Positions 7,874-48,302 of a stretch of 64,000 nt of DNA are shown here, piece by piece. The position numbers and the translations under genes are program-made. Under the pieces are notes generated by a model. It worked only from the letters and a program-made list of their open reading frames with translations, had not been told where the DNA came from and searched no databases. The DNA is taken from contig OY747710.1 of the NCBI GenBank assembly GCA_963556495.2, positions 2,333,001 through 2,397,000 on the forward strand, read 5' to 3'. The DNA is from Valencia hispanica (Eukaryota; Chordata; Actinopteri; Cyprinodontiformes; Valenciidae). Numbering within the stretch: position 1 is the stretch's first letter; each line of letters begins with the position of its first letter.

Positions 7874-7874
7874 A

Positions 7875-10061: not shown

Positions 10062-10275
10062 GCGGCATCCCTCGGATCAGACAGACAGAAGCTTCTGAAA
10101 GTGATGAAAGAGCTGAAGGACTTGAAGGAAAATGGAGGAGCAGGTTTGATGAAAATCCCAGAATGTGACCTGGAGAAGAACGATGCTTTAGACCTGGTGG
10201 AGCTGATGCTGCAAACCTACGGTGGAGGTGACCAAGAAGATTCTCAGGAATGATCTGGTGGACAGGCTGTGAGGA
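10062..10275 (+). pseudogene. Terminal PYD exon relic
   Basis: This starts after a good acceptor (catctcaccag) with codons matching the intact terminal PYD exon 46403-46681: an A-A start, SD-K/R, LLK-MK-LK, then a block lost relative to the intact copy, then IP, LE, ALDLVELMLQTY. A frameshift near 10230 follows. After it the other frame reads VEVTKKIL, then NDLVDRL and a stop. The in-frame deletion in helix 2-3 and the frameshift make a functional death fold unlikely. Confidence 0.75.
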
Positions 10276-19548: not shown

Positions 19549-22500
19549 CTCTCATGCATCCCTCAGTGTCAGTAAAGTGACAAAAAGGTTCGAGAGGTAC
19601 TAATACCTTTGCAAGGCACTGTATTTGGATACCCTGCGTTTAAAAGACACAGATGTGTAATTACTAATTATGCTAATTGTTTTTGTGGCATTTCAGAACA
19701 TCGTGCTGCTGTTTGTGAGCCTAAACATAAAACAGCTCTGAAGAAGAGGTTCCAGTGTGTGTTTGAGGGGATCGCTAAAGCAGGAAGTCCAACCCTTCTG
19801 AATCAGATCTACACAGAGCTCTACATCACAGAGGGAGGGACTGGAGAGGTCAATGATGAACATGAGGTCAGACAGATTGAAACAGCATCCAGGAAACCAC
19901 ACAGACCAGAAACAACAATCAGACAAGAAGACATCTTTAAAGTCCCACCTGGAGGAGATCAACCAATCAGAACAGTGATGACAAAGGGAGTGGCTGGCAT
20001 TGGGAAAACAGTCTTAACACAGAAGTTCACTCTGGACTGGGCTGAAGACAAAGCCCACCAGAACATCCACTTCATATTTCCATTCACTTTCAGAGAGCTG
20101 AATGTGCTGAAAGAGAAAAAGTTCAGCTTGGTGGAACTTGTTCATCACTTCTTTACTGAAACCAAAGAAATGTGCAGCTTTGAACACTTCCAGGTTCTGT
20201 TCATCTTTGATGGTCTGGATGAGAGTCGACTTCCTCTGGACTTCCACAACAAGGAGATCCTGACTGATGTTACAGAGTCCACCTCAGTGGATGTTCTGCT
20301 GACAAACCTCATCAGGGGGAAACTGCTTCCCTCTGCTCTCCTCTGGATAACCACACGACCTGCAGCAGCCAATCAGATCCCTCCTCAGTGTGTTGGCATA
20401 GTGACAGAGATCAGAGGGTTCACTGACCCACAGAAGGAGGAGTACTTCAGGAAGAGATTCAGAGATGAGGAGCAGGCCAGCAGGATCATCTCCCACATCC
20501 AGACATCAAGAAGCCTCCACATCATGTGCCACATCCCAGTCTTCTGCTGGATCACTGCTACAGTTCTGGAGGAGGTGATGGAGACCAGAGAGGGAGGAGA
20601 GCTGCCAAAGATGCTGACTGAGATGTACATCCACTTCCTCCTGGTTCTGTTTAAAGCGAAGAAGCTCAAGTATGATGGTGGAGATTTGACGGACGCGGAC
20701 TGGGGTCCAGAGAGCAGGACGATGATCGATTCTCTGGGAAAACTGGCTTTTGATCAGCTGCAGAAAGGAAACCTGATCTTCTATGAATCAGACCTGACAG
20801 AGTGTGGCATCGATATCAGAGCAGCCTCAGTGTACTCAGGAGTGTTCACACAGATCTTTAAAGAGGAGAGAGGGCTGTACCAGGACAAGGTGTTCTGCTT
20901 CGTCCATCTGACTGTTCAGGAGTTTCTGGCTGCTCTTCATGTTCATCTGACCTTCATCACCTCTGGTGTCAACCTTCTAGAAAAAAGACAGAATTTCCTC
21001 TGGTTGTGGTGGTTCCTTCCATTTAGGAGGAAGGTTGAACCAACAAGCTTTTATCAGAGCGCGGTAAACAAGGCCCTACAGTTTCCAAACGGACAACTGG
21101 ACTTGTTCCTCCGCTTCCTCCTGGGACTTTCACTGCAGACCAATCAGAGTCTGCTACGTGGGCTGATGTCGCAAAGAGGCACTAACACACAGACCAACCA
21201 AGAAACAGTCAAATACATCAAGGACAAGATCAACGAGGATCTTACTGTGGACAAAAGCATCAATCTGTTCCACTGTCTGAACGAACTCAATGATCGCTCT
21301 CTGGAGGAGGAGATCCAACAGTCTCTGAGGTCAGGAAGTCTCTCCACAGATGTACTGTCTCCTGCTCAGTGGTCCGCTCTGATCTTCATCCTGCTGTCAT
21401 CCGAGAAAGATCTGGATGTGTTTGATCTGAAGAAATATTCAGCTTCAGAGGAGGTTCTCCTGAAGCTGCTGCCAGTGGTGAAAGCTTCCAACAGAGCTAC
21501 GTTAGTGCACACTGCTTCATATGATGTTTCACAAAGTGTAATTCATGAGACAAATATAAAAAGAAGTCTCATCAATTAAAATTACAGTTAGAGTGAAAGG
21601 AAGACTTTACTTTACTTACTTACTTTATTGATCCCAGAGGGAAATGAAGTGTTGCTGTAGCTCATATAATTAATTCTTTAAGGAGTTGTTGTAGATCATG
21701 ATGGCTGTGGGCAGGAAGGATTTCCTGTAGCGGTCTGTATTGCAGCGAAACTGAAGAAGCCTCCGACTGAAGACGCTCTGTTGTTGTATGACCGTTGGAT
21801 CCTTGATTTAGTTTTTTTCCTCAACATTGTGTCTCCTCAGACTGAGTGGCTGTAACCTCTCAGAGAGAAGCTGTGAAGCTCTGTCCTCGGTTCTCAGCTC
21901 CCAGTCCTCCAGTCTCAGAGAACTGGACCTGAGTAACAACAACCTGCAGGATTCAGGAGTGAAGCTTCTATCTGCTGGACTGCAGAGTCCAAACTGCAAA
22001 CTCGAGATTCTCAGGTAATGTTCATAGCCTGTATAACTTTTATTCTACTTTCCGTCCCACCGGATTTCTGCTCATTATAGGCTGCTGCTGCTTGATAAAT
22101 AATATTAAGCAATTTACATCCTTCTTAAATTTTCCTTGTTTTGTATTTCTGTAAATTCTGACACTGTCTTATTGATTGATGTCTTCACTTGTTTAGATTG
22201 CCTTCACCACCAGAAAACGGACCTTTGGGTTGTACTTTAATCTGGAGCGGTGTATTTAATGCGTTTTATATTTTCCTTGCAGCCTATCAGGTTGTCTGAT
22301 CTCAGAGGAAAGCTGTACTTCTCTGGCCTCAGCGCTGAGCTCCAACCCCTCCCATCTGAAAGAGTTGGACCTGAGCTACAACCATCTCGGAGAATCCGGA
22401 GTGAAGATGCTGTCGGCTGGACGGGATGATGCACGATGGAGACTTGAAACTCTCAGGTATAGAAAGACCTGCCACATACCTCCAGAAAGATCAGAATAAG

Positions 22501-29005: not shown

Positions 29006-29267
29006 GTGGAAACGATGACGACTAAAGAGCTGCTTGTTGAAGCGCTGGATCAGCTGAGTCCAGGAGACCTCCATGACTTCAAGTTGTTCATTGTGGCAGA
29101 AAAGATTTTACCGTCCATCTCAAGGAGAGATCTGGAAGCAGCAAACACAGAGGATGTGGTGGAGCTGATGGTGGAGATGTACAGAGGAGGGTGTGTGGAG
29201 GAGACCAAGAAGATTTTACTGAAGATGGGGCGCCAAGATCTGGAGCAGAGACTATCTGGAGTCAGAG
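29006..29267 (+). CDS. PYD exon 1 and linker exon 29388-29410
   Basis: Acceptor ttttccccag, then three codons and ATG 29015. Helix 1 is LLVEALDQL, followed by DFKLF, LEAANTEDVVELMVEMY and a final QDLEQRL. The donor is G|gtgaga (phase 1). The 23 bp linker exon returns the frame to phase 0. The loop between helices 2 and 3 is short compared with later copies. Confidence 0.85.
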
Positions 29268-32200
29268 GTGAGAAAACCTGGCAGATATTCTATATTACTT
29301 TGGAAATTCAGAATTTATCTGATGACGTATTCTTCATGAAAGGATTAAAAATATTGTTTTGTATCTTTTTTTTTTTTTTTTTTTTAGAGAATCCATCTTT
29401 AATCCAGAGAGTAAGTGATGCATCTTCAGTTAACATTGACACATTTCAGCTGTAAAACAAAGACAGAAACATTCTCACACAGGAGCAACCAGCGGAAATG
29501 ATTTCAGCCGATTTTAACTGGAACGGCTCAATTAGATTGTATATTAAATGCATAACCTTCTAATTATATTGTTCGTCGTTTCCAACATGCAAAAGAGTTC
29601 AGTTGTCAAATAAAACATGTCACTAGACTTCAATCTGAAATATGCAGCCTTAGCTCAGTTTATTGTTCATACATACCTCTGGACAGTATTCTCAGAGTAC
29701 AGACGGATCACCGCATCTCTAGCCTTCTCCCCGGAAACTCTGCACTCCCTGGACACACTTTCCAAAACCTCCCTGCACTCTCCTTTTAACCCCTATTTTG
29801 TGCCCTTGTAACATACGAGCTGTTTGATAGGAGACAGATGTTCTAGCAACGTCTCCCAGCAACTTCAAGATCTCACTTTATCAGCTAGATATTATTAAGC
29901 TTCAACAAGCCTTTCTGACTTCAGACCCTGATTACTGTAGACATAACATCACATTTTATATTACATCGTTCTTCCTTACCTCAACAATGCCACAACAATA
30001 TGTACTGATATTTAACCATGTTAAGAATATACAGTTTTGTTTAAAGAAGAAAAAAAAGGTGTGTAGGCCTACTGCCTTACAAATGCACTCTTGTTCATAC
30101 AAATAGTTTTGTGGTTATCATGAAATTGTTAAAATGGACAAAAAGAGAAAACAAGATTTCAAATGCTAATCTCTTTTATTAAGGCAAGAAAGTTCCCCAA
30201 ATAAGCCTGAATCGATGCGAAACCCCCCATAAAAAATTATGAACTGTTAATAAATAAATTTGTTGGTTAAATTTTACTAGCCACACTCAGTTACAGCCAG
30301 ACCGGTCAAATTCAGAAATCCCTTAAATAGAACCTCTCTGACAGCATGAAGTAGGTCACAGGAGCTCAAAAACCAACACATCACATCTTGATCTGAGGAA
30401 ATTCAAAAACGGATGAGAAAACAAACATCTATCAGACATCTATCAATCTAGAAAGGGTTATAGAACCATCCCCAAGGCTTTGGGACTCCACATAATGGTT
30501 CTGTAGCAAACGAAAATATTTTGATGCTACTGGTTGCTGGGTGTTGGTGGGTTTTGTTTTTACACGTACTCAGTCAAAGTTTACAGTTCTGATGTTCTTT
30601 CCATTTATAAGTCATTTATTTCCTTTTATCATATCCGTTTGTTTGTCTTTCTATTTCCATTTAAACAAATAACGCAAGTAACTAGAGTAAGTAACTAATC
30701 AGCAACACCTGAACAGAGCAACACTTGACCTTATATAACGCCATCCTCACCTCTGCCATAACCAATACAACAAAAATGAAATACACCCCCCTAGCGGTGG
30801 TATTAAACTAGAAAAATGGCTCCTACAGGTTCCACTCAGTGATCCACACATGGAAAACCCATAGAACAGTGAAGAACCTTCCCAGGGGAGAATACCCTAC
30901 CAAAATTACTCCAAGAGCTCCTCGACTCATCCAGGAGGTCCCAGATCCAGCCACGCAGTTAAGCCACCATCTCCCGAGTCCAAGTCACGCTCGAATCCTT
31001 AGTGTTCGAGTCTAAGTGCAAGTCCAAGTCACACATGATTAGTCCAAGTCAAATCGCTAGGTCCTACTGGCCTAGTCCGAGTCCAAGTCCCAAGACGAAT
31101 CTCCCAGTCCAAGTCAAGTCATTATCACCTGAGAACAAGTCAAAAACAACAGAGCAGAGTGTAGATTTTAAGACCAGAATAATGGCAGCCATACATGGTT
31201 TACTTTATTCATTTTATGTCCTCCATGTCCCCACGCTATCACCAAGCTAATAAAGTGGTATGTGAATAATAATAAAACATCCTTGAAATACATTTGAAAA
31301 CAATAAATAATGTCACCCTAAAGTTACAAAGGCTTTTAGAAAGTTGTTATAGTGTTATATGTGTGTGAATGTGTCCGTGCTAAATAAAGCGCTATACAAG
31401 CACAGGCCATTTACCATTGAATAAATTTGTCCAGTAATCTGACCTAATATAACAAGTTTATATTAGCAGCATTGGCTACATCCTAATCCCAACAACAGCA
31501 ATTTATCAGGTCAGAGTCCAAGTCCAGGTTCAAGTCCTAACGTTGCAAGTGGAGTCCAAGAACAAGTCATCGGCGTGCTGCTCAAGTCAAGTCACAAGTC
31601 ACTTAAATGTGACTCGAGTCAGGATTTGAGTCTGAGCCAATGACACGAGTGCTCCATCCCTGCCCCGAACAAGCCACCATCAAGTCCACCTCTGGATTCC
31701 TGAAAAGAAACCGAGAAATAAATGCGGGTCTAGTCAAAGTCAAATTGACCCTTTTCCACTAGGGTCGGCCCAGAACGGCCTGGTTGTGTTTCCATTGCCA
31801 TCTCAGGAACGCGGCAGTGAGCGAGGACATGGGCGGGCCCAGTAAAGATCAGTCATCACTCACCGTTTTCCGACATTACAGATGGCGATGCTGGAGCCGG
31901 GATCTAGCCCACTCTCTCTCCCGTTGCTCGCCGGCCTTTCACCACCTGCCGTCTGTCCCACTCCGGCAGTTGTGGTCCTTCACGGCCCAATATTCGCTTT
32001 TTTAAAGTTTTCCTCCTGTATTGTTTAGAACTCCGCTGGAAGCCGTGCGTCGCCATTCTCTGTGACATCGCACGCTCGCCGCCAGGCCAAACAGTGGCTA
32101 CGACTACGTAGGTAGGAGTGAGAGTGGCATCAGTTTACCGGACCAATCAGTCCTTAGGTGGACGTGTTGGGTCACCTCCGCCCGCTTCTGTCTGAGACAG

Positions 32201-35200
32201 AAGTCGTCCAAAAAAAAGGGGGTCCCAGAATAATGCAGTGGAAACACACTAAATAGGGGCTGACTCGACCCGGGCCGGGTCGCGCCAGTGGAAAAGGGGC
32301 GCAAGTGAAATACTGTGACCTTAAACTGATCGTTGATACTGGAAAACCCTCCAGTGTGGTTGATTAAAAACACCCGAGCCAAAGGTGAAGCCCCACAGTG
32401 ACGTTAAAGACTAGTTCTCACAAACCCCGATGGCTTCGATGTTGCCTAAGGGAGGTAAATAACATGAGCTGTGTTTAATAATACTAATAATAATACTAAT
32501 AATAATGGTCGTGCATTATCTCCTTCTGATTTGTGAACATTTCTATGAATTGACCAGGTGGGAGAAATGGAGTCTGTTTTCGAGCTGCTGCTGGAAACCC
32601 TGTCGGCTCTGAGCGATGGTGGGTTAAGTGAATTCTGGGAGCGGTACCTGGAACTAGAACCTTCTTCTCTGGCTGCTGATGTGATGCCACCAAACACTGA
32701 CCTGGAGATCACAGCAATCACATTGGTGCAGAGTCACGGAAAACAGTCTGTGGACGTAACCAAGAGGATTTTAGAGGACATCGGCAAAAGGCGTCTGGTC
32801 CGAAGGCTGTCGGGTCGCAGGTCCAGAACCAAAAGTAAGGGAAAAAGAAGGAAACTATGTTTTTGGCTGATGTTGAGGAACAGTTTCATACGAATCTCTT
32901 TAAAGCTGCTGCACCTGATGTTTCTGTCATTTTCTTCCTCTCAGAAACACGTGACAATCGTCAGTCGGCGCTGATCCACAAAGTGAGTACAGTTTGTTTT
33001 TCTTCATTTCATGGGTCACACATTTAAGTAAAAATCAAAAGAACCTGGATTCACTTTGTTTAGTCATGGGGAAAATTAGTACACCCCAATGTTTCAGCAG
33101 TTTGTAGAACCTTCTTTAATAGCTTTAGCTCTCTGCAGTGAAGGAACCATAAGCCACTTTTCTTTCCAAGGTTGCTTCAGTTCATGTCATGACCTTTAAC
33201 CTTTAACCTGCTAACTGAGGCTTGTAGAGACAGAGATGGAGCTCATGGGTTTTGGGTAACTTCTTTGAGCTTCCCGCTCTGACCTTGGGCTGAATCTGGT
33301 GGGACGTCCACTCAGCTGTCTGAGATGGTTTCCTCTCTGGAGAATAATCTTCATCTCCTTTTTAAAGGCATATATCACACAATAAAAACAGTAAACTGTA
33401 ATGTTTTTTATTTTTCCAGGCAGCAACGATGGCAGCTGTGAACGAGATTCTCCTGGAAACACTGATGGGTTTGAACTCTTTAGACCTCTCAAATTTTAAG
33501 ATCTTTTTGAACTTTACGTCCTTCCAGAAGAAATTTCCACAGATCTCATGGAGCAATTTGAAAAAGGCCAACTGGAAATATACGGTGAATCTGTTGATGA
33601 CCACATACGGTCAGCAGTGTTTGGAGGTGACCTGGGAGGTTCTGGTGGACATGAACAGGACCGATCTGTTGGAGAAGCTGCCAGAGAAAAGCTCTGGAGC
33701 TGAAGGCAAGCTGAACTAAACACTCCTCGGTAGTTCAAAGCAATGCTCTGCTGTTTATTTTCCAGCTTTAGTCCTTAAAAAACACATTTTCATTGCCTCA
33801 GGGGGGAAAAACTCAGAAGGAACCTTCTTTTTTTTACTATATTTACCTGTAAAACTGACATGTGCTTCTTTGCCTTTTCCTCAAATTTAAACCAAACAAA
33901 CCTGAGGCGAAATATATCTATGATTAGATCTCACATTTATCTGATTTATGAGTTAAATAAATGTTAACATTGTGGACAAAAGTGGCCCAAATCTGACGTT
34001 TTTGTGATCCGACTGGCTGAAAGCGGTCAGCTGACATGCAACCCCTCCAAAAAACAACACACAGAAACTCAATCACATCAAAAGCTTACCAAGTTCTGCA
34101 CAGGCAGCACAAGATCTGCTGAAACCAGAAGTTTACATACACCCAATAAAAAGACACGTCCACCTTTTTCTTCTCAGTCTGAAGTTAAATCAGACCAAAC
34201 TTCTCTTGTTTAGGTCAGTTAGAATCACAAAGCAGGTTTTATTTCCTAAATGCCTCAATAATTAGAGAAAGAATTTGTCTGAGATTTATTTATTAACCAA
34301 TATGTCCCTGTGGTTGGTCATCAATAGAAACTGAATTCATTATCATCAAATGTTTTCCCTCAGAAAAACTTTCTGTGGAAGAACTTTGGCCCGGACTGAT
34401 TGACAACGTGAGTAATCTGTGAAACATCAACCGCGATGATTTTCACTAAATGGACACAGCTTTAAAACATCAAACATATGCTACATTACACATTGTGTTG
34501 ATTTTACTCACTGCTTATATCAGGGGTGTCCAAAATGGGGCCAAGGGGCCATTTGCTGCAATTTAAGAGCAGTGTATTTGATACAGATAAAGGTTTTATT
34601 TTTTTAATACATAGCCTATATTATAAAGTTGCAATTTTTTGCATTCTCTATAGTTTTACAGTAAATAGAACCACAAATATCCAACAACTTTTACTTGAAT
34701 ATGAACTTTGGTTCAGCCAAATCTGCATTTAATTACTTTATTAAACTAAAAACAGGAAGTGTTTATAGAGACAGGGTGGCCCAAATGTCCTGTTGTTGTA
34801 GAAGACAACAGACATTTGTTTTTCTAGGCCAAGAAAAGTGACAGAATCAGCTTTTAAGGTAGCTTTTGTTAGGAGTGTTTCATTGAAGAGACACCTGGTA
34901 ATCAACATAAAAAGTAATCATAAACCAAAATAATCCAACTGTTGTTAGATGTTCTATTGTATTACCAGGTTAAAGCCATGGAGTTTGTTACTGAGCTGCT
35001 GCTGGAAACTTTGGGCGATCTAAGTGAAGAAGAGCAGATGTTCTTCATCATGGTCCTTAGCCAGAGTCAACATGACTTTACAGACAGACTGTTGGTCATT
35101 AAAGACCTGCAGCCTGCGGTGCTTGTAATGGTGCAGATGTACGGCCTGCAGTCTGTGGAGACGACCAAGGAGGCATTAAAAATGATGAGGAGGACAGATC

Positions 35201-38200
35201 TGCTCCAGGAGTTTTCAGCATCCAGAATGAGGCAAGAAAGTAAGACAATAAAGCTTAAACATGTAAAGATTAACCTTCTGCTTTTGGTTTGACTTCTAAA
35301 GCTCTTCACTGTTTTTCCCTCAGTGAAGCTCTCAGTGGACAAGCGAAGCTCTGCTGTTGTACAGAAAGTGAGTAATGTCTGTTTTTCCTGCTCCGTCTCA
35401 GTGACAGAACCGGTTCTTTTTTTATTTCTATAGAAATAATTACGAGATCCTGATGCTTTAAAATCTGTAGGGTCTTAATAAAGAGCCTTGAACCTCTGTG
35501 TTTCGGCGTGTTTCTGATTAACATGTTGACGTTCCAGGTGGCTCTGATTGCAGCTTTCAAGCAGCTCCTCACAGAGATCCTGAGTGGTTTGAACAAAAGG
35601 GAGCTTGAGGACTTCAAGAAGTTACTCCGGTCGACCCTTAACCTCTCTAGAATGAACCTCCTGCATCCTTCTATGAGGTTGGGATTCGGACCACATGTCC
35701 CAAATGTAGTGAATGCGATGGTGGAGGAGCTGGGCCTGCAGTCTGTGGAGGTTTCTATGGAGATTCTAATGGACATAGACAGGAGTGATCTGGTGAAGAG
35801 GCTCCTGGAGACCAGCTCAGGACTCAACGGTAATACAAATAAAAATTTAAACCTATATCCCCCTATCAAATGTGAGCTGGCTGCAGTGGCGGTCCTAGCC
35901 CATTTGGTGCCCTAAGCGAGCTTGACTGATGGCGCCCCTTGCCCACGAAAAAAGAAGTCATGTCCAAAGAATTGCACATTTATTTAGATAATGATAGTAT
36001 AACAATAACAATATAACAACATGTGCAAAAGAATAAAGCTGTTCAATTATAAATATGCAAAAAAAATGTTTAACTTGAACAGTAGTGCAACATCTGAGAA
36101 CAAAAAGTGCACACTAAAGAATCCAAACAAAAAATAAATTAACAATAAAACGTTGTGTGCAAAGACCGAAAGAACGAGATCACGGATACAAGCGGCTGAA
36201 ATGAGTTTCCTCCGCAGAGTGTCTGGGCTCTCCCTTAGAGATAGGGTGAGAAGCTCAGTCATCCGGAGGGGGCTCAGAGTAGAGCCGCTGCTTCTCCACG
36301 TCGAGAGGAGTCAGTTGAGGTGGCTCGGGCATCTGGTCAGGATGCCTCCTGGACGCCTCCCTGGTGAGGTGTTTCAGGCACGTCTCACCGGGAGGAGGCC
36401 CAGGGGAAGGCCCAGGACACGCTGGAGGGACTATGTTTCTCGGCTGGCCTGGGAGCGCCTTGGGGTTCCTCCCGAGGAGCTGGAACAAGTGGCTGGGGAG
36501 AGGGAAGTCTGGGTCTCTTTGCTTAGGCTGCTGCCCCCGCGACCCCACCCCGGATAAGCGGAAGAAGATGGATGGATGGATGGATGGATGGATGATAGTA
36601 TAACAATAACAACATAACAACATGTGCAAAAGAATAAAGCTGTTCAATTATAAATATGCAAAAAAAATGTTTAACTTGAACAGTAGTGCAACATCTGAGA
36701 ACAAAAAGTGCACACTAAAGAATCCAAACAAAAAATAAATTAACAATAAAACATTGTGTGCAAAGTTATATCATATAAAGCTGTTGAAAAAAATAAATAG
36801 ACATTATTAAAAAATAGTTTCTCGCAGCATATTTGGCAGCCCCCACTAGATGGCGCCCTGGACAAGCGCCTTTGTCGCCTGTAGGTATGACCGCCACTGG
36901 CTGGCTGCATAGTAGCCTGTTGCAGAACGGCCTCTGCCTTCGTTAGAGTGGGAGAACAACTCCCCTGAAGATCCTGAGTGAAATATCCACTTAGTTTGGG
37001 TTTATCTGGTCTGTCCGACACCGTTTCTCCTGAGGTCTTCCCCTCTCATTGGTCTCCCACCGGTTACCTCTGGTTTTCTCTTCGGTTACAGCTGTTTGAT
37101 GCATAAGTTCCCACATTAAACATAGGAAGACCTGCAGATGTTTTTCCTATGGAACGCCTAAATGCTCAAAATTAAGTAAATAAATGAAACCTTATGATAT
37201 AAATGTCGACATGAATAAATATATAATATGATTATGAAATTGTGAAAAAACTGAATTCATATGAAATCCTTAGCTCATTAATGTGAAATAATGTTAATTT
37301 TCCTTTAAAAATGTTATTAATTTAAAACATTATTTAACTGTACATTTTTCCTAATAATTGATTTTTTTATCTTTTTGACATTTTTATTTAATTAGATTTT
37401 TATTCCAAAATGTCTTTTTCACAAAATCAGCTTTTGTTTCATAATGGGGTTTTTTCCCAGTGGCTTAATTATTTCAAAAGGCCATTTTACAACTGAATGA
37501 TTTTATCTGCCAATCAGGGTCAGTAAGTGGGACCTGGACACTCATTGGCTGGTGCTTAATGATTGATCCTTCTGGAGGAAGATGAGATTGGCGACGAAGA
37601 GCTGAAGTAGTTTGATACTGTTGTTGAATTTAACGCCTGTAGGTTTTTGTGTATAGTTTTATCCAGATGTTCACAATATTTGCAGAATATATTGGCACTT
37701 TTTTAATGGGGCTGTCTCAATCCAGTCGGCTGGTGTTGCATCAGTGTTCCAGGTGTAAAGCTGTCTCTGATGAGACTGGCGAGAGAATAAAAGGATGCAT
37801 AAATAGCACAGAACGTATTTAAATAATTCTCCCTTTAATTTCTTCATTGTTTGTATCAAACCACCAACCAGGGCTTCTTCTGCAATTCTCCTCCTAAGTG
37901 TGCTGGATGACACAGAAAACGTATCGGCAATAACTCCGATGGTTATGTCTGCTTCAGTGCTGGGCCTGGGATCATTTCAAAAACATCATCCAACCGACTC
38001 AAGATGGCGTCCTCCGATAAATGACGACCCTTTTCCACTAGGGTCGGCCCGGGTTGAGCCAGCCCCTATTTACCGCATTTCCACTACCTTAGTCTCTGTC
38101 CAAAGCGAGCAGAGGCGACCCAACATGCCCACCTATGGGCTGATTGGTCCGGTAAACTGATGCCCCTCTCACTTCTACCTACGTGGTGGTAGCCACTGAT

Positions 38201-41200
38201 TGGCCTGGCAGTGTGCATGTGAAGTCATGTCACAGAACGGTTTCCCCTGGAGTTCAAAACATTTATAGGGGAAACTTAAAAAATGATAGTGCGAATATCT
38301 GTCGCAAGCACTTGAAGTGCTTTGCGGAAATGGAAATGGTGAAAGGCAAGGGGAGAGAGAGTGGGCTAGATCCCGGCTCCAGCATCGGAAAACGGTGAGA
38401 GATGACTGATTATTACTGGCAGTCTGCTACACGGAGCTCGCCCATGTCTTCTCGTTCCACGTTCCTGAGATGGCAAAGGAAACACAACCAGGCCGAGCCG
38501 ACCTTAGTGGAAAAGGGGCTTTATTCCTCTCAGTTTGATCTGCCAGAGTAACCAGAGCTGAACAAAGTTCATGAAACTCCGAGCTGATAGATGGAATTAA
38601 ATAAAAAATGGCAAAAATCACAATTTGTTGCCAGGGGGAAAATGTAGAGTTAAATGTTTCATATTAATAACTACATTTTTAAAGGAAAATAAAAAAAAAT
38701 ATTTCATAATAATGAGCCAAGAATTTCACATGAATTCAGTTTTTTTCACAATTTCAATGTCACATTATATATTTGTCTGTTATTTATTCATGTTACTGTT
38801 TATTTCACAAGAATGTATGAATTTATTTATTTATTTAATTTTGAGCCTTTTGGCATTCCATATTTTCCCATCAGTAAGAAGAAATCCCACAATTGCATTC
38901 CCAGGACCAACCTCCCTTTCCACACAGCACATGAGGCACCGGAATCCCTGTGGATCCACACGGAAAGACTTCCTGCTTCTCCTTTTATTGCTGTTTTTAC
39001 TTTATATGCTTTGTCTGTGTTTTACTGCTATCTTTATTTTACCTCTAAACATGTAAAGCATGTGCTTTACAGATAAAATTGCCTTGCCTTTGTACTCGGC
39101 CCATTTAAGCAACAGGAACCAAGACTTGGAAAGTTCTCCCTCAGGACTGGAGGGTCTCCAGGTTTTCCTATCCTGAGCAAATCATCTTATTTTCTGTGGT
39201 CTTGCATCATAAAACTTTGGATTTGTTCTTAGTTTGAGAGTTTGAAAGGTGGCAATTCTCTAAAACAGAACGACGCTTTTATAAATACTAGTTGTAGAAC
39301 TAAAAAACATCTCCAACAAATCCCGTCAGTCAGTTGCCTCCAATGATCTTCTGTTTATTCTCAATTTCAAATGAATTTAAAATCTTACAGAAATCAATGT
39401 TTTGTGTTTCATCAGGAAAGCTGTCCGCTGATGAGTATCTGAGAGCAGTTGTGCTGAACACAGTAAGTGGGACTTTCTACATCGTACTTTATTTTTCTGA
39501 GCTTTTAGCAAAGAAAGCAAAGTAAAGCAGGTGTTGTTACTGCCACAGGCAGACAGAGCTGAAGTTAAAGGAGACTGGGATCCAGTAGGTCAAGTTCAAA
39601 CCCCTCACTGGGTTTGGGATGGGTCAAAGGAAACAGAAATAAGCCACATTATAACAGAGTAATATAAACTGGGTCATAAAACAGCTCAACTGTTTCATAA
39701 ATCTGCACTAGAACAGATACATTTGTGGCAGAAGTCAAGAAAAGAAGCTGGAGACCTGCTCCCTTCCCAGTTCTCTATGATTCTGCAATTAGATATAAAT
39801 ATTTAGAAAATACAGAGACAGAATTGGAAGGTGAAAAATTGCCTGTTTAAAGAAAAGAATGCGGCAAATAAAAACTTCTCAATAAGTTCTTTAAATGTTT
39901 CAGGTGCCAGCAAAGATGGCTCTAAAAGATACACTTCTGAAGATGATTACGGAGTTGGGCTACTGCGAAATCAGGAAGTTCAATTGGTTGCTGCAGTTCA
40001 CATGTTTCCAGAAAAGCCTCCCAGGAATCCCAGTCAACGCGCTTTGGCCCACGACCCGGACTGGCGGAGCGGTGGATCAGGGACAAGAAGGACCGTCAGG
40101 CTTGGTGGATCGGATGGTTCAGAGACTTGGCGGAGAGTCTGTGGACGTAGCCAGAGAGGTTCTAATGGACATGAACAGGATCGATGTGGTATGGAAGCTG
40201 CCAGGGATCCTGTTCGGATCAAAAGGTTGGACTGATGTCAAAACAATTATCAGTTTAAAAAAAATGTACCAACTTTAAAAATGTTCTTCTCTCGTTCCTT
40301 CAGAGGAGCTTCAGTCTCTGTTGTTCCAGAAAGTAAGTACGACCACATCAACACATCTTTGTTTCCTCAGTTATGTGCTGCAGATTATTCACCTGAAAAG
40401 TTATTCTGCCGGTGCGTTCAAACCGAACGCGTTTGAAGCGTCAAGGGCGTCAGGTTTACACGTAAAGACAATGCAAAAGCAGGGCTTCTGCGTCGCGTTC
40501 ACGCATTTCTGCCTCATTCGCGCGTCAAATTCACGCGAATGAAGCATTTGACACGCGTTTTTGCGTCTGCCGTTGAAGTTGAAAAATCCGAACTTCGCCG
40601 TCAATTCGCGCCGCGTCAACCAATCAGGATCCTGGTGACGTGGCGTCACGTGATGCTGTGACCCAGTTTACGAGGTCAGGTCCGGCAAAAATCATTCATA
40701 AAACATGGAGAAAATACTGATGGCTAATCACCCCGAGCTACACGACACCAGCTGCTTCCTCTTCAGGGACAGGAATAAAAAGGAGCTGATTGGAGGAATA
40801 TAAGTGAGGAGATCCGGCAACCTGGTGAGTTCATTGGCACTACTTCCTCCCACAAGTTGTTAATTTCCATTTTGACTCGCGTCCAAAGCGAATTGGACGC
40901 GCATCGAGGTGCGAACGTTCAAGCGTCAACCTTTGCCGTGCGGCGCGTTTTTGACGCTTTGGTGTGAACATATGTAACACATCCAGTAGGTTAAACTAAC
41001 TTCTTATCTTCTGGGAAAACACATGAAACTAACGGACAGGGAGGAGGTAACGGGAGGAAGAGTACAAAACTACAACCAAATAAAACTCCTAAACTTCACC
41101 AATGCAGTAAATAAACGAAACCCCAAGATGATTGTGAGCGGGGGTTGCCTCTCTTTGGGCAACGCTAGAAAGGGATTGATCTTCACACGTTGCACATGTC

Positions 41201-44200
41201 TAAACTTCTCCTCCCTGGGATCCTGGACTTGTTCTTCAATGCTTGGCCGCTGGTATTGTTCTCATAGGGTTCCATTTGATAGACTCCAAGAAGGGTTTGG
41301 GAAATGGTTCTGGTCTCAGAACCAGAGTGAAGAGAAGGTGCAGGATGTTTGACCGGATGTGGTTTAGACTTATGAATCTGATACTCCCCATCCAGTTTTC
41401 AGAACTGAAGACGAAACGTTTTCCAGACAACAAGAAGAGTCCAGTTTCCTTCATTTTAACTCTCAAGATTATCATGTCTCATACAGAATCTACACCAATA
41501 TAATGTGGTTGGTGCTGTTAATTAAGGCCAAACATTTCTATTTTGGTCTCATTTGTTCAGAGGAATTTGTTACAGAAGTCTTTACAAGCAGAGTATCACC
41601 AGATCTATGATTTAAGAGATTAAGCTAATTAAATTCCACTTTATTTCACATCCTTTCTCCCTCCTAGATCCTACAGAAGCAAGGCAAGGCAATTTTATTT
41701 GTATAGCACAGTTTCAACAACAAGATGATTCAAGGTGCTTTACATGATAAGGGGATAAAGTAAAAACAGCAATAAAGCAAAAAGCACACGCAAAACATAT
41801 GATACATCAAAGCATGACTCAAAGGCAGCTCTGAACAGATGCGTTTTTAGTTGTAATTTAAAAGAACTCCGTGTTTCAGCAGCTTTGCAGTTTTCTGGAA
41901 GTTTGTTCCAGATTAGAGGAGCATAGAAACTGAAAGCTGCTTCTCCATGTTTGGTTCTGATTCTAGGGATGCTGAGTCGACTGGAATTAGAGGACCTGAT
42001 TGGTCTGGGGGGGGGTTGCTATAGTGACAGGACTGCTGAACTTAGTCTTTAAACAGATTTAGATTTTTGGTTTTACCTTTGTTTAATAAATGATGTCAAT
42101 GTGGAATCTGCTTTGTTTAAACTAAAAAGAAAAACTGACCAAAAAAATCATCAGAGCAAATTGTTTTAGAGCCTAAAACCTGTGGAATACGGTTTTATTC
42201 ATAAATAAATAAATACCAAAACAAATCAATATTCCACTAAATTAATTGACAAAAAACATACAAAATAAACGTTTCACATTATAAAAGAATTCTATCGATC
42301 GATCTATTGATCGAGATAGATATATATAGATATAGACAGATAGATACATAGGTACATAGATATTTCTTTCATAATGTGAAACTTTTATTTTGTACATTTT
42401 TCAATTTATTTTGTGGAATTTTGATTTATTTTTGCATTTATTTATATGTGAATAAAACGGCATTCCATAAAAACCTTTCAAAAATGTGATGATAAGCTCT
42501 AATATGATCAAAGGTTCTGTTGCTTCTTCTTCTTATAATCCACTGACTCTGTGTTCAAATAGACAGGTACATCTAAAAACACATACAATATAGTGAAAAA
42601 TGTTGTCCCTATTTTCAGAAAGTGAAACATCTCTATTATATAGATAGATCACAAATAGACTGGGACATTTTAAGACCTAATTTCTTGTAATTTAGATGAT
42701 TATGGATTACAGAAAATGAAACCCCCATAAATTTGTATTAATATTTTGAAAAAAATACAAATTGTGAACTCTTGTTATCAGAACCTAATCAGTTAATTAC
42801 CTCCAAACATCTGCAGAACTTTCCTCTAAATTGTCTCAGTCTGGATCAGTACAATCATCCAATCATCGGTGAAGACTGCTGACTGGTCAGATGTCCAGAA
42901 AACAGGACACAAGGAGGGGAAGCCACAGAGGGTCATCGCTAAAGCATCTGGCTGTTCTCAGAGTGCTGCAGACGTATTCTTAGAAAGTTGAGTCGAGGGA
43001 AATTTGTGTATAGGAAAAGGTGCACCGGGCATAACTGCAGCCTTGACAAGTATTCTAAGCAAAATCCATGCAAAAGGAGCCCCAACCAAGAATTGAGTGC
43101 ATAGAAATCGTGGGAATCTGTGCAGACTGGGTCTCCCTCTCACCCCATTGTGAGCAGACATGTGCTTCCTAATTTAACTCTGACTACCTGATTCTTTTAT
43201 CCGGTCAGGTGGAAATATTCAAAAACTAGACAAGCAAATACTTTGTTTGTACATTTCTTAAAAGATAAAGCCCTGATTCAAAAGTTCTAAAAATCCAGCC
43301 AAGCAGGAGGTAGAAACGCCGGTCGCCTTGTTACTTCTCCCCTGAGCGAGTAGCAGCAAAAATCCTTGACTTCCTCTCGTCTTGCGGATTTGTAGCACCT
43401 CATGGCTCCTCCTGCAACCCGGTTTCTTCCAGATTCTCCTCCTGACCTCTGCTCCTCCTCATTTCCTTTAATGTGTAAACATTCTTTTACTCTCCTATGG
43501 AGTAACGCTAGTATGCATTCTCCTGCTGTCAAACATACAATACAGTGTCCTACAATATCCTACAAAATGAGCATACTTTACCGAAACCTGGCAGTTTTTG
43601 TTTAAAACATACTTTTTTTAGTGATCTTATTTCATAATAAAATGTAGATGTGCGTGTGTATATTTCAATAAGTTGTAATCCTCAGGAAGCGGGTGTAACG
43701 GCGGTCATGGAGAAACTTCTGGAAACGTTTGAAGATTTGGGTGAAACAGAGTTTGAACATTTCCAGAGAGTCCTGCAGAAGAGTTTGTCCAGGAAACACA
43801 GGAGAGGAACCCCGACCTTCGTTAGGGAGACTGGAAGGAAACTGAAAGTGGCAGAGCTGATGTTGGAGCAGTTTGATGAACAGACTTTAGACGTGGCGAC
43901 GCATGTTTTAAAGAAGATACATCGGCCTGATCTGGTGCAGAAGATTTCAGGAAAAACCTCAGCAAGTAAGTTAGGGGAAAACAGACTCTGAATGACTCAG
44001 TATGCTGATGATGATGGATTAGTAATCTCTCTTCATCCTGTCTTTTGTTGAATTACTGTAGAGTAAAACCATGAACCATTTTAAAAAATTTTTAGCAACA
44101 TTTTAGGGAGCTGGGATTCTGCAGAACATCCAACTCTCATGCTTTATTAAGCTTGTTGTTTCTCCCCAAGGACCTGCAAGACGCTGTGGTGCCAAGGGTT

Positions 44201-46681
44201 GTGAAAGAGTAATGGTAATTTCTCAGTCATCGATTCTTGATATTTACGTTTTATTTATTAGCTCGTCTGGATGAAAGGTCAGAAAGAAGCAATGTAATCT
44301 GTTTCCTGCAGCAGGACTCCAGCTGCTGGACTGAAGTGGTACCTGGGGTGAAGCAGACAGATGGAGGCGGAGCTCCAACCTACAGGTGAAAGCAGCATCA
44401 TCAGTACTGTTGCTCAGGAAACGGGAGACTTCAGATCAACCATTTTTTCCTCCCATATTTCAGCCTCCAGAGTGAAGCTGGACTATTTGAATGCCATGTC
44501 TCTGGTCTGCGTTGGATCTGTTCAGAAAATGTCGTCTTTAAATACCGGTTCTGCTCCTGGGACGGACACATGGAGAGGATGGAAAGCAGAGGATACAGGC
44601 CTGCAGGTCCTTTAATGGACATCAGCCTCATTACTGGGAAGATGACGGAGGTGTTCCTGCCACACTGGATCTGTATCGGTAGGAGAACGTGATGATGCCA
44701 AACTTTTAACATCATGGAGTCAGACCTTTTCCTCTCGGTGTTTCATCCTTGGCCGTTTTCTCCAGATGACATCCCTGAACCTTTGGACCAGTTTGCAGTC
44801 CTGCACATGGACGACTGTGGAGACGCTGTGGAGAAAGTCTCTGAGGTCTCATCATCACACGTCAAGCTAACCGAACCCATTTTCTCTCCGAGAGCGGTGC
44901 TGTTGAAAGTCGGCTTTCCATTGAAAATCAACTGTCACATGTTGATCTATCGGACCAGCACAGCTTTCCTCACTCTGCATGTTTTCCTCATCCCACGGGA
45001 TCCGGCCTTACGGCAGGTTATTACTGGTTGAACAGAACCAGCTTCACATGATGGTGAACACTGGTCAGAAACATCAATACTTTATCTTGGTTCTATTTAC
45101 AGAAAATGGACCAGAAGGAAACTTCAGAAGGGTGCAAAGTGATCCAAAAGCCAGACCCGGAGAAATCTCTGAAAATGAACGAATACTTCTTTCTCACATC
45201 AGATCTGGATGCTGCAGAAGTTTCTCCTAAAGTAGGTTTTAAACAGCTTTAATGTTGATGTTTTTACATCCGACTGTAAATCCTTCAAAAAGACTAGTTT
45301 ATGGTGGGTTTACATCAGGGCTGCAGCATATCTCACCTTGACATAACACTAAATGGATGCTGATTATATATCCGTACCACGGCTTCAGGCAGTAATGAAT
45401 TTGGTCAAACATCAGTAAGACTGACACTAAAACCGATTCTCCATCTGTTTTCAGACGGGAATAAAACTCCGATATCCAAGAGGAAAACCGAATTTCTTTG
45501 AGGTCTACGTTGAAAATGCAAACAGAAACTTCAGTCTGACACTCAGACCAGACGGAGAGGACCAGGCAGTATGGGAGTGTGCTGTTCGAAAAGGTCAGGT
45601 TCACTTTCTTTTCTCATGAATTTAAAGTATTCAGAACAAAACCACTTTTTAGGGAAACTGCACTGTTTTATGAGGTCACATAATGAGGAATAAATCCGTC
45701 TGATTGGTTGGTTTTACTTTAGTTAGTTCGATTTGGGTCATTAGGAGAGAAGGTGTTCACATAAACTGGTTACATTTCTGTTTCAGATGAGTATCAAAGC
45801 AGTGGCCAAGCACAAGGTAAGACAAACTGATGTATAGTTCAAAAGTATTCACACCCCTCACAAACACAAACTTCACCATTTAGTTATCAGATTAACATAG
45901 GCGTTTTGACATGGATTCTCAGTTAGATTTAGGTCTGGACTTTGACTAGGCCATTCTAAAACTTGAATATTCTTAGATCTAAAGCAGGGACCTGGGGCAT
46001 ACCCATAGCATTGGCATTAATAATCCTGGAGGGATGTGCAAACCTTTCTTCTTCTGCACGTTTGCTGTGTTCTCTACAAGTTTAGCTCATCTGCTGTGTC
46101 CAGTTTTCTGTCAGATTTCTTCACTTCAGCACCTTTAATCTTCCTCTCTGCCCAAACATAAACTGACTGATTTATTTTTTTGTAAATCATTTGTGAGTCT
46201 GAATAATCTGAGATGTTTTTTAGTTTTCTCCTCAGAGCTTCAGTGTTTGGATGTAACTCTGTCTGTAATGATGCAAAGAGTGAGTAACAGATGTTTCTAA
46301 CATTACACAGCACTTTGGAGATTAATAAGAAACTGTTGGGGAGGGAAAAAATCAACATTTCAAACCATGAAATGATCGACGTCCTCTCCTGTAAATCTTT
46401 AGGCAGCAACAATCACATCAGACAAGGAGATGCTTTTAAAACTGATGAAAGATCTGAAACAGGAGGAATTGAAAGAATTCAAATGGTTCCTGAAGAACAG
46501 AGACGTGAGTTCAGGCTTCCCAGAGATCCCAGCGAGCTCACTGGACGAGGCCGATACTCCAGACCTGGTGGATCTGATGATGAAGACCTACACCCAAAAG
46601 GCGGTCGAGGTCACCAAAGACATTTTTAAGCAGATTAAAAGGAATGATCTGGTGGAGATGTTTCCAGGCAGCAGCTCATGA
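29015..46681 (+). CDS. Tandem-PYD FIIND protein (7 PYDs - FIIND - PYD)
   Basis: Twenty-two exons with good splice sites and fully compatible phases join from ATG 29015 to TGA 46679-46681 into 1,136 residues. PYDs lie at about 1-84, 93-184, 198-292, 308-397, 413-509, 526-632, 643-735 and 1045-1136. FIIND (ZU5-UPA) spans about 775-1019. FIIND proteins such as NLRP1 and CARD8 self-cleave; degradation of the N-terminal part frees a C-terminal UPA-death-fold fragment that seeds an inflammasome. His860, Glu869 and Phe886|Ser887 match the cleavage residues and spacing of human NLRP1. The last domain is a PYD, so the freed fragment would be UPA-PYD (about 250 residues). There is no NACHT or LRR. The promoter and 5' exon are not identified, and separate transcripts starting inside the array are possible because most PYD exons have an ATG near their start. 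Confidence 0.82.
29411..32557 (+). other. Intron with two transposon-derived blocks
   Basis: 30960-31660 is a degenerate array rich in the decamer AGTCCAAGTC at both ends, a known style of fish non-autonomous element. 31749-32299 is a MITE listed separately. The remainder, including the frame at 29617-29811, shows nothing recognisable. Confidence 0.45.
31749..32299. mobile_element. MITE family A, copy 1
   Basis: Terminal inverted repeats: CCCTTTTCCACTAGGGTCGG at the left and a matching GCCAGTGGAAAAGGGG at the right. The interior is GC-rich with no transposase. A second, inverted copy is at 38036-38518. Confidence 0.8.
32558..32834 (+). CDS. PYD exon 2 and linker exon 32945-32982
   Basis: Opens V-G-E-M-E with ATG 32567. 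Helix 1 is LLLETLSAL. The middle is divergent (SEFWERYLELE) and lacks the usual FK pair. The end reads KQSVDVTKRILEDIGKRRLVRRLSG. Phase 1 donor A|gtaagg. The linker encodes 13 residues ending ALIHK. Confidence 0.82.
32990..33400 (+). other. Intron, possible transposon relic
   Basis: 33062-33330 resembles an old DNA-transposon fragment (ACACCCCAATGTTTCAGC, AGGTTGCTTCAG), but no ends can be fixed. Confidence 0.25.
33420..33705 (+). CDS. PYD exon 3 and linker exon 34364-34407
   Basis: Opens A-A-T-M with ATG 33429. Helix 1 is LLETLMGL, followed by LSNFKIFLNF, and the end reads WEVLVDMNRTDLLEKLPE. The only phase-correct donor is G|gcaagc, a GC-AG type intron. If it is not spliced, TAA follows at 33717-33719. 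The linker encodes EKLSVEELWPGLIDN. Confidence 0.8.
33720..34968 (+). other. Introns around linker exon 34364-34407
   Basis: 34519-34790 starts with CAGGGGTGTCCAAA, a motif that begins many hAT-type MITEs, but no clear right end was found. There is no other feature apart from the linker exon. Confidence 0.3.
34969..35239 (+). CDS. PYD exon 4 and linker exon 35324-35367
   Basis: Opens V-K-A-M with ATG 34978. Helix 1 is LLLETLGDL, the loop is short, and the end reads MYGLQSVETTKEALKMMRRTDLLQEF. Phase 1 donor A|gtaaga. The linker encodes MKLSVDKRSSAVVQK and is clearly related to the linkers after PYDs 3 and 5 (KLSV or KLSA core). Confidence 0.85.
35538..35829 (+). CDS. PYD exon 5 and linker exon 39416-39462
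   Basis: Opens V-A-L-I with no early Met, so this copy is unlikely to be an initiating exon. The domain reads LLTEILSGLNKRELEDFKKLL, with a Pro-rich middle, then GLQSVEVSMEILMDIDRSDLVKRLLE. Phase 1 donor G|gtaata. Its linker exon lies 3.6 kb away, across an intron inflated by three transposons, and encodes GKLSADEYLRAVVLNT. Confidence 0.87.
35991..36765 (+). repeat. 174 bp direct duplication flanking Rex3
   Basis: 35991-36164 and 36592-36765 are the same MITE segment. I count two differences (ATAT/ACAT near the start and ACGT/ACAT near the end). The copies meet the 5' and 3' ends of Rex3 exactly. Confidence 0.88.
36165..36597 (+). mobile_element. Rex3 3' fragment, copy 2
   Basis: The 430 bp 3' end of Rex3 in the plus orientation (SFLRRVSGLSLRDRVR…GWMDGWM) ending in (GATG)n. 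It sits inside the hAT MITE and is flanked by a 174 bp direct duplication of MITE sequence (35991-36164 and 36592-36765). Confidence 0.9.
37145..38867. mobile_element. DNA transposon with terminal inverted repeats of about 230-250 bp
   Basis: 37145-37385 is inverted at about 38610-38867. Matching blocks include GCTCAAAATTAA with TTAATTTTGAGCC, CTGAATTCAT with ATGAATTCAG, and CCTTTAAAAATG with CATTTTTAAAGG. The interior carries MITE family A copy 2 and no transposase frame, so it is non-autonomous or gutted. It lies in the intron between PYD exon 5 and its linker. Confidence 0.75.
38036..38518. mobile_element. MITE family A, copy 2 (inverted)
   Basis: The same ends as 31749-32299 (CCCTTTTCCACTAGGG … TAGTGGAAAAGGGG), but the interior is in reverse orientation relative to copy 1. 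It is nested in the long-TIR transposon. Confidence 0.78.
38975..39095 (+). mobile_element. LINE 3' end fragment
   Basis: Ends AGATAAAATTGCCTTGCC and matches 14486-14643. Confidence 0.5.
39904..40225 (+). CDS. PYD exon 6 and linker exon 40304-40332
   Basis: Opens V-P-A-K-M with ATG 39916 and is the longest copy (322 bp). Helices 1-2 read LLKMITELGYCEIRKFNWLL. A long Gly/Arg-rich insertion (TTRTGGAVDQGQEG) occupies the helix 2-3 region. The end is GGESVDVAREVLMDMNRIDVVWKLPG. Phase 1 donor G|gttgga. The linker encodes only ten residues (EELQSLLFQK). Confidence 0.82.
40411..40972. mobile_element. CpG-rich MITE
   Basis: The left end GGTGCGTTCAAACC and the right end GGTGTGAACATA read as imperfect inverted repeats. 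The ends are dense in GCGTC and GACGC words, unlike the AT-rich surroundings. There is no coding sequence. Confidence 0.6.
41678..42020 (-). mobile_element. LINE fragment, minus strand
   Basis: Begins GCAAGGCAAGGCAATTTTAT, the reverse complement of the 3' tail seen at 14643 and 39095, and continues into degraded C-terminal LINE coding sequence. Located in the intron before PYD exon 7. Confidence 0.6.
42183..42468. mobile_element. Palindromic MITE with a GATA microsatellite loop
   Basis: About 100 bp arms, 42183-42290 and 42363-42468, are near-perfect inverted copies (GAATACGGTTTTATTC against GAATAAAACGGCATTC at the ends; CGTTTCACATTATA against ATAATGTGAAAC at the inner ends). The loop is a GATA/GATC-rich simple repeat. 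The transcript could fold into a long hairpin. Confidence 0.85.
42470..43685 (+). other. Intron sequence, nothing recognised
   Basis: No PYD relic, transposon end or coding signal was found between the palindromic MITE and PYD exon 7. Confidence 0.4.
43686..43965 (+). CDS. PYD exon 7 and following exon 44171-44214
   Basis: ATG 43707. The domain reads LLETFEDLGETEFEHFQRVL, a basic loop, then VAELMLEQFDEQTLDVATHVLKKIHRPDLVQKI. Phase 1 donor A|gtaagt. The next 44 bp exon sits in the linker position with correct phases but encodes RPARRCGAKGCERVM, unlike the other linkers, and its acceptor is the weaker cccaag. Confidence 0.8.
44312..45593 (+). CDS. FIIND domain (ZU5 plus UPA), five exons
   Basis: Exons 44312-44385, 44464-44678, 44766-45016, 45103-45231 and 45455-45593. 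ZU5 has FECHVSGLRWIC, YRPAGPLMDI and VFLPHWICI, matching the order of NLRP1/CARD8 FIIND. Candidate catalytic His is at 44804-44806, Glu at 44831-44833, and the scissile Phe|Ser at 44882-44887 within IFSPRAVLLK. From His to Ser is 27 residues, the same as His1186 to Ser1213 in human NLRP1. UPA continues through CHMLIYRTSTAFLTLHVFLIP and ends VYVENANRNFSLTL…VWECAVRK. No damage is visible, so self-cleavage is predicted. Confidence 0.9.
45787..46279 (+). CDS. DEYQ mini-exon (45787-45816) and linker exon (46236-46279)
   Basis: The 30 bp exon D-E-Y-Q-S-S-G-Q-A-Q follows UPA at phase 1. The 44 bp linker (ELQCLDVTLSVMMQR) returns the frame to phase 0 before the last PYD. They form a flexible 25-residue connector between UPA and PYD. 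Confidence 0.75.
45838..46080. mobile_element. Tc1-like fragment
   Basis: Contains AAAAGTATTCACACCCC and TGGACTTTGACTAGGCC, typical degraded Tc1 phrases. Located in the intron between the mini-exon and the linker exon. Confidence 0.5.
46403..46681 (+). CDS. C-terminal PYD exon (PYD 8)
   Basis: After the acceptor aatctttag this encodes LLKLMKDLKQEELKEFKWFL, then GFPEIPASSLDEADTPDLVDLMMKTY, then VEVTKDIFKQIKRNDLVEMFPG, ending TGA at 46679-46681. It is the most canonical PYD of the set, with the conserved IP and acidic-leucine core. In NLRP1 and CARD8 this position holds a CARD. Confidence 0.9.
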   Translation, partial: AATITSDKEMLLKLMKDLKQEELKEFKWFLKNRDVSSGFPEIPASSLDEADTPDLVDLMMKTYTQKAVEVTKDIFKQIKRNDLVEMFPGSSS

Positions 46682-47572: not shown

Positions 47573-48302
47573 ATGCCTCGGAGCATTAATATGCTCCTCC
47601 TTGACACCCTGGAGGATCTATCCAAGCAGAACTTTGACAGGTTCTGCTTCCAGCTGTTGGACCGCAGAGAGGAGCCGCGGGTGAGACGCTGCAGGGTGGA
47701 GGGGAAGAGCCGCCTGGAGATCGTGGATGTGCTGGTGTCCACCTTCACGGAGCAGAGGGCCGTGGGGGTCACGGAGGAAATCCTCAGGGACATCGGCTGC
47801 AACCGGGAAGCGGAGACGCTCGGTGAGAGAACCCGGAGCCGCAGGAGAGCGGAGACCGTCTCTGGGGCCAACCAGCATGTAGAAATAAAACGCAAGAAAA
47901 CTGCTGATTTATTCAGATACATCAAACCGACGCAGGTTTATAAGATTACATTCATGCAGAAAATAAATGTAACTCTTATTAACCGAATATTTGAGCAAAA
48001 CTGCATTTTACTTTCGATTTCACATTAAGCCCCGATGATCAGGAGCGCCTCCTGGCTTCCAATTTAGTTACTGTAACGTAATGCTTTAATAATGGCACCC
48101 TGTTGTATTATATAGCTTTACATATCAGAGCATAATTATTTTTAAAAAAGTGACCAAGTCCCTGAATTATTTCAAAGTGACGTCAGAAAATGGGACTTTT
48201 TTTTGCTGGATTGTGACAAATTTCACCGATTTGAGGCGACATATTTTTTTTAAATGAAAGTTTCTGATTTGTTTTACAGTGAATGAAATGCGTGGAGGAT
48301 GA
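47573..48302 (+). CDS. PYD-only protein candidate
   Basis: Exon 47573-47822 (ATG, then INMLLLDTLEDLSKQNFDRFCFQLL, a Glu/Arg-rich loop, then VTEEILRDIGCNREAETL) ends at a phase 1 donor G|gtgaga. The next exon starts at 48280 after ttttacag and adds VNEMRGG then TGA at 48300-48302, giving 90 residues. The second exon extends to a donor at 48320 (A|gtgagt), so it looks like a linker exon with an in-frame stop. PYD-only proteins in mammals block ASC or NLRP PYD assembly. Whether this one does, or is a decayed module, is unknown. It is GC-rich compared with its surroundings. Confidence 0.6.

Follow-up and report, generated by a model that had tools for sequence, protein, structure and literature searches.

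We analyzed a window of 64,000 nucleotides from the genome of Valencia hispanica (C12:2333001-2397000; genome scanned, 29 contigs and 1.29 Gb) and found on its forward strand a gene of 22 exons (29015-46681) that join into one open frame of 3,411 nt, encoding 1,136 amino acids and a stop. Splice sites were picked by eye and the exons then joined by script, and this rebuilt model reproduced exactly the span, exon number, and 1,136-codon frame given in a preliminary description of the same DNA. Of the 21 introns, all but one have GT-AG borders, the exception being 33706-34363 (GC-AG). The donors of the model agree with the consensus at a mean of 7.1 of 9 bases versus 4.2 for all 1,036 GTs between 28 and 47 kb; since the model sites were selected for such consensus, this contrast is partly circular. 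The start codon at 29015 is putative: the acceptor at 29005/29006 points to a 5′ UTR exon farther upstream, and no stop interrupts the reading frame as far back as about 28847; an ORF of a relative (P0242, discussed below) starts three residues earlier.

The encoded domains follow the order of seven pyrin domains (PYDs), a FIIND (ZU5 plus UPA), and one more PYD. Each of PYD1 to PYD7 occupies a single exon that is entered in phase 0 and left in phase 1, after which a short linker exon restores phase 0, so that the PYD exon and its linker form a unit that could be copied without breaking the frame. The array opens with exon P1 (29015-29267; start codon and PYD1, PYRIN 50.1 bits) and linker m1 (29388-29410; phase 1 to 0, identical in the relative at 5/7 positions), and continues with P2 (32558-32834; PYD2, 17.1 bits) and m2 (32945-32982; 7/12 identical), P3 (33420-33705; PYD3, 58.6 bits, with the GC donor) and m3 (34364-34407; 12/14), and P4 (34969-35239; PYD4, 16.3 bits) and m4 (35324-35367; 12/14). 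Beyond a 170-nt intron (m4/P5, 35368-35537) lie P5 (35538-35829; PYD5, 27.7 bits) and m5 (39416-39462; 13/15), P6 (39904-40225; PYD6, 24.8 bits) and m6 (40304-40332; 8/9), and P7 (43686-43965; PYD7, 47.6 bits) and m7 (44171-44214; 9/14). The FIIND region starts in exon F1 (44312-44385; 20/24 identical) and runs through F2 (44464-44678; ZU5 subdomain), F3 (44766-45016; ZU5 end, catalytic residues, and UPA start, as placed by Pfam and an NLRP1 alignment), and the UPA exons F4 (45103-45231) and F5 (45455-45593). Two further linkers, m8a (45787-45816; 9/9) and m8b (46236-46279; 9/14), lead to exon P8 (46403-46681), which holds the C-terminal PYD (81.3 bits) and the stop.

Pfam searches of the joined product called PYRIN (250 bits, with six stretches passing alone), FIIND (PF13553, 121.9 bits, aa 772-897), and UPA-FIIND (PF23679, 87.6 bits, aa 901-1017, with F4 and F5 inside the match), and the last domain was again PYRIN (residues 1055-1129), overlapped at PYD8 by a sub-threshold DED match. 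These four were the only domains at E≤1, so that NACHT and LRR are absent by this search. The pyrin and FIIND assignments of the preliminary description thus hold for the product as a whole, while taken singly only six of the eight PYD exons exceed the PYRIN cut-off of 22.9, PYD2 and PYD4 falling below it. A PYD model made from the family itself recognized all eight copies at 51-105 bits (51.5 for PYD2 and 71.4 for PYD4), although these scores are inflated by a training set that included the window PYDs among others. Of the eight copies, PYD8 matches the general PYD model best.

The FIIND was also matched in the genome scan at exon F2, where the match overruns the donor; its intronic part contains two TGA codons. 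At the protein level it aligns to the NLRP1 chains 7crw (rat, 1.2e-25) and 6x6c (1.2e-22) and to CARD8 (3.6e-13). Residues H860 (codon 44804-44806) and E869 (44831-44833) and the predicted self-cleavage bond F886|S887 (44882-44887) align with H1186, E1195, and F1212|S1213 of NLRP1, whose FIIND cuts itself at F1212|S1213 with the triad H1186, E1195, and S1213 according to the accessible passages of PMC9700037. Among the matches listed, 289 of the 311 proteins gave 315 FIIND matches, of which 273 keep the full H-E-F-S set and 42 do not; 16 of these 42 are gapped at all four positions and six have T for S. With regard to functional-degradation sensors, which are under DPP9 control, the residue after S887 is P888, corresponding to P1214 in NLRP1, and homologues among the matches listed carry P (181/315) or L (86/315) there. 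An AlphaFold model of P0003, a homologous ORF from the relative, used an alignment of 36 hand-picked homologues and reached a mean pLDDT of 66.5 and a pTM of 0.30, with 206 of 734 residues, much of ZU5 included, below 50. Searched against the PDB (E≤0.001), it returned 11 matches, namely nine FIIND chains of NLRP1 or CARD8 (including 7crv/7crw; 7crw_A, 7.8e-13) and two NLRP3 PYD chains (3qf2_A, TMt 0.83, rmsd 1.3). The FIIND named in the preliminary description was confirmed by the PF13553 match, and its autoproteolysis residues are retained.

The surroundings hold several related sequences. A sibling FIIND gene with PYD, FIIND, and UPA exons lies ~65 kb upstream of the window FIIND (C12:2308347-2327077; L010, L011, L012), its matches being 36-47% identical to the query. 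A CARD exon (PF00619, 63.7 bits; C12:2326835-2327077) follows 12 kb past its UPA exons and probably belongs to it, as a Fundulus protein (P0027) matches both the sibling and the CARD exon; the effector end of the sibling (CARD) would then probably differ from that of the window gene (PYD). Within the window, UPA-like fragments and a piece resembling PYD8 follow one another in order on the forward strand (1840-2034, 7870-7986, and 10056-10269), and the stretch from about 1.8 to 10.3 kb is probably a decayed third FIIND-PYD copy, although Pfam had no match for the 43-residue piece at 1906-2034. A FISNA-NACHT-winged helix-HD2 exon of a fish NLR (19576-21576) sits between the two FIIND genes; as a front to the window gene it was rejected, given that P0002, P0241, and P0242 all start at PYD1, and PF05729 occurred in none of the best 120 of 206 listed homologues. 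A reverse-transcriptase fragment (17132-17794; RVT_1, 91.9 bits) is a retroelement remnant. Less than 1 kb past the stop of the FIIND gene, a single PYD exon (47573-47822; 71.2 bits) with its own ATG and donor resembles, by eye, the first PYD of P0207. The window ends in a minisatellite (56572-64000; 27-bp unit, 282 copies) that is open in several frames and produces long spurious ORFs. Elsewhere in the genome, C7:59287036-59292986 (L027) is possibly another gene of FIIND-PYD type, with a single open stretch that matches PYD and CARD and, close by, a FIIND match of 54.7 bits and more PYD matches, while two FIIND matches in one 1,174-aa frame (C19:48353391-48355235; L001, L002; 158 and 154.3 bits) gave the top FIIND scores of the scan.

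Three protein searches, from which at most the best 120 of 206, 150, and 157 matches were taken, yielded 311 homologues; isoforms, several genes per species, and short-query hits are included in all counts, and proportions depend on the three queries. Three to 14 PYDs precede a FIIND in 177 of the 311 homologues among the matches listed, the others having one or two PYDs (44), none (67), PYD-only arrays of at least three (22), or UPA only (one). With a stricter CARD model used for this domain census, the 177 listed proteins end in PYD (83), CARD (68), or UPA (26, perhaps incomplete models), and 41 of them have a CARD-like match inside the N-terminal array, these inner CARDs being uncertain. 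With at least three PYDs, PYD plus linker exons, and an orthologous copy order in close relatives, the window gene belongs to what we call the teleost poly-PYD FIIND family. Its closest named relatives are in Poecilia, Poeciliopsis, and Fundulus. The organisms named are generally classed as percomorph or other spiny-rayed fishes, in a search that favors close relatives. Some Oreochromis clusters are an exception in carrying the title of Mustela putorius as well, which probably reflects contamination or mislabeling. Of the best 120 of 206 matches, about 105 are, by eye, titled "uncharacterized protein", and a few of these 120 are named as homologs of "NACHT, LRR and PYD domains-containing protein 1". 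Such automatic NLRP1-homolog names (e.g., P0122 and P0090) thus sit on fish proteins that have neither NACHT nor LRR among their listed Pfam domains.

The joining of the 22 exons can be followed in the relative, from which two ORFs, P0242 (425 aa) and P0003 (734 aa; source tag of both "lgn", taken to be Logan), derive from a 4,274-nt contig; we infer that this is one and the same contig from the equal length and a shared intron. P0242 spans the part from PYD1 through linker m4 and continues into the counterpart of the m4/P5 intron, and P0003 begins inside that counterpart and extends through PYD5, the FIIND, and PYD8. Together they align with all 22 exons over their full length, linkers included, at 58-100% identity, and their lengths leave no room for insertions relative to the 22-exon model, which is therefore no product of chance. 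The contig has lost 20 of the 21 introns and retains m4/P5, which stops the frame after PYD4. Lacking 20 of 21 introns, it is best read as RNA, and the locus is, on sequence grounds, very likely one transcript, as the preliminary description had proposed. Independent genes with their own stops were not found, though partial forms speak somewhat for a split: besides the retained intron, one predicted isoform in Poecilia mexicana (P0241) stops short after PYD5, and in Fundulus heteroclitus the model P0122 consists of FIIND-PYD alone.

These partial forms bear on an alternative that we consider unlikely, in which the array and the FIIND-PYD part are separate proteins made through intron retention or early ends together with internal starts, the full chain being minor; the PYD-only protein would then serve, in soluble form, as a pyrin decoy or inhibitor, and FIIND-PYD would be a short sensor. 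The two ORFs of the contig that keeps m4/P5 (PYD1-4 and PYD5-FIIND-PYD), the ends of P0241 and P0122, an ATG kept near the beginning of P2, P3, P4, P6, and P7, which are five of the seven PYD exons that follow P1, and the 22 listed PYD-only arrays would all suit it. Against it, the same two ORFs cover all 22 exons on one contig, the P. mexicana model P0002 splices the m4/P5 intron to give PYD7-ZU5-UPA, P0004 reads PYD6-ZU5-UPA-PYD, and the 177 listed homologues counted above join at least three PYDs with a FIIND. A PYD-only form of the locus product is possible alongside the full chain, and the PYD-only arrays among homologues suggest that the array may act apart from the FIIND.

Relative to the same relative, identity is 89.1% for PYD8, the most conserved PYD, 87.3% for the FIIND, 82.5% for the N-terminal PYDs, and 77.8% for the linkers, a contrast of modest size that does not hold evenly, as PYD2 (86%) and PYD4 (87%) come near PYD8 (89%), and exon F2 equals PYD6 (79% each). 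Distances from PYD1 and PYD8 to several species are similar (e.g., 0.83 and 0.81 to Astatotilapia calliptera). A tree was made of 189 PYDs belonging to 24 proteins (the query and 23 hand-picked of the 311) and read by distance only, without support values. In it, every one of the 14 nearest neighbors is a first copy in the case of PYD1 and a last copy of another protein in the case of PYD8. The order 2-3-4-5-6-7 is repeated exactly in Poecilia mexicana, Poeciliopsis prolifica, and both Fundulus heteroclitus proteins. When the middle copies of more distant proteins are labeled by the nearest query copy, the string 4-3-4-3-3 appears in 10 of 16, twice in Oreochromis niloticus (14 copies) and Sebastes umbrosus, and within this 24-protein tree it was not found in the other six or in Gambusia affinis. 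We read the sequences as pointing to an old block of alternating PYD types that may have been block-duplicated to greater length in some lineages. Linkers between PYDs have a median of 26 residues (n=1,214), and a loose common pattern was counted in 659 of them, without a shuffled control.

Our favored reading, which we hold with somewhat more confidence than doubt, is that the window gene encodes a degrade-to-release inflammasome sensor like NLRP1 and CARD8, with the pyrin array as bait. In the "functional degradation" of NLRP1, as described in the accessible part of PMC7483925, the cut halves stay associated, the proteasome removes the N-terminal half, and the chain break spares the C-terminal fragment. 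By analogy, the FIIND of the window protein would cut itself between F886 and S887 with the halves remaining together, and the N-terminal half (seven PYDs and ZU5) would restrain the C-terminal half (UPA and PYD8). If the N-terminal half were cleaved, ubiquitinated, or unfolded, the proteasome would degrade it up to the break and free the UPA-PYD fragment, which would polymerize and recruit ASC by PYD-PYD contacts. Cleavage, autoinhibition, degradation, and release are steps that we infer from NLRP1 and CARD8, and the proposal of autoproteolysis is founded on the H-E-F-S residues kept across listed FIIND matches and on the fold match of the homologue. Weighing against the reading are the low confidence of parts of the fold model, the 42 listed FIIND matches with an incomplete residue set, and the PYD-only arrays among homologues. 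The preliminary description had likewise suggested release of an active UPA-PYD fragment, for which homology with NLRP1 and CARD8 gives grounds, and a decoy, bait, or scaffold role of the array, which stays hypothetical.

The sensing end, under this degrade-to-release reading, would be the array itself, in which the domain employed by inflammasome proteins is repeated with variation and would serve as bait to pathogen factors directed against PYD proteins. Such a bait role is hypothetical, drawn from the widely varying copy number and from analogy with the decoy role proposed for the single PYD of NLRP1 against factors attacking PYD proteins (PMC5142783, in the passages accessible). The same passages report that GFP can substitute for the PYD of human NLRP1 with autoinhibition and activation intact, so that the PYD need not be the sensed part. 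The modest and patchy difference in conservation between the array and the FIIND-PYD8 part, and the similar distances of PYD1 and PYD8 to several species, also count against a bait.

A different role for the array, which we judge quite improbable, is that of a multivalent scaffold or inhibitor that caps or collects the pyrin filaments of ASC or NLRPs, with FIIND cleavage only tuning turnover. PYDs are homotypic interaction domains, which fits a scaffold; the copies also differ in charge (pI 4.3 to 8.1), as would suit different partners, and the recurrence of 4-3-4-3-3 in 10 of the 16 distant proteins would be expected if copies had partners of their own. The spread of PYD number from 3 to 14 among the 177 listed relatives, the weak match of PYD2 and PYD4 to the general PYD model, and the retention of the catalytic residues, which argues that cleavage matters, all weigh against it. 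Finally, an artefact in which PYD exons from distinct adjacent genes were joined by mistake would fit an area that also contains other PYD, CARD, FIIND, and NACHT exons, but is extremely improbable and was rejected given that the relative's two ORFs, on a contig free of 20 of 21 introns, cover all 22 exons, that the linker exons are conserved there, and that 177 of the 311 listed database proteins, though not independent of one another owing to isoforms and prediction methods, share the joined architecture.

Returning to the bait reading of a released UPA-PYD, a broader version can be put forward tentatively, as possible though doubtful: a branch of FIIND sensors present in many fishes might carry decoy-pyrin arrays whose destruction by pyrin-targeting pathogen factors frees UPA-PYD or, in sister genes, UPA-CARD, with alternative splicing of the same gene also releasing a soluble pyrin-only decoy. 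If true, this would be a multi-copy version of the PYD-decoy idea proposed for NLRP1. The family keeps the FIIND cutting site, while its sensing end is a pyrin array and its effector end a PYD or a CARD; it opens the NLRP1 PYD-decoy proposal (accessible passages of PMC5142783) to direct testing, and is relevant to the question of what pathogen activities fish cells guard against.

The preliminary description knew of no described protein with this architecture. As a matter of uniqueness this is refuted by the 177 of 311 listed homologues with 3 to 14 PYDs ahead of a FIIND, and as a statement about the literature it stands: open-access full-text literature, with subscription journals and preprints outside its scope, yielded no title or opening of an abstract announcing a PYD array with a FIIND. 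The family is predicted in databases, widespread, and apparently undescribed in the literature. In the accessible literature passages, FIIND sensors are NLRP1 and CARD8, each with a C-terminal CARD, and fish FIINDs are placed in NLRP1-type proteins with a CARD (three reviews on fish and a survey of metazoans: passages of PMC12436146, PMC9978379, PMC11508797, and PMC8122782). The nearest counterparts are instead database proteins of the same architecture and PYD order as far as modeled: P0002 (Poecilia mexicana, 993 aa), which is without a C-terminal PYD, P0004 (Poeciliopsis prolifica, 942 aa), and P0005 (Fundulus heteroclitus, 1071 aa), which ends in a CARD.

With NLRP1 (of human and rodent, and of zebrafish and carp in reviews), the window protein shares a FIIND of ZU5 and UPA, identical catalytic residues with the F|S bond, and an effector death-fold domain at the C-terminus; it differs in having neither NACHT nor LRR, in its seven N-terminal PYDs where NLRP1 has none or one, and in a C-terminal PYD where NLRP1 has a CARD. 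With CARD8, it shares a FIIND followed by an effector death-fold domain and the lack of NACHT-LRR, whereas a PYD array replaces the 160-residue unstructured N-terminal region of CARD8 (described in accessible passages of PMC11760013), and a PYD rather than a CARD follows the FIIND. The window protein is hence neither NLRP1 nor CARD8, though it has the working part that is common to both.
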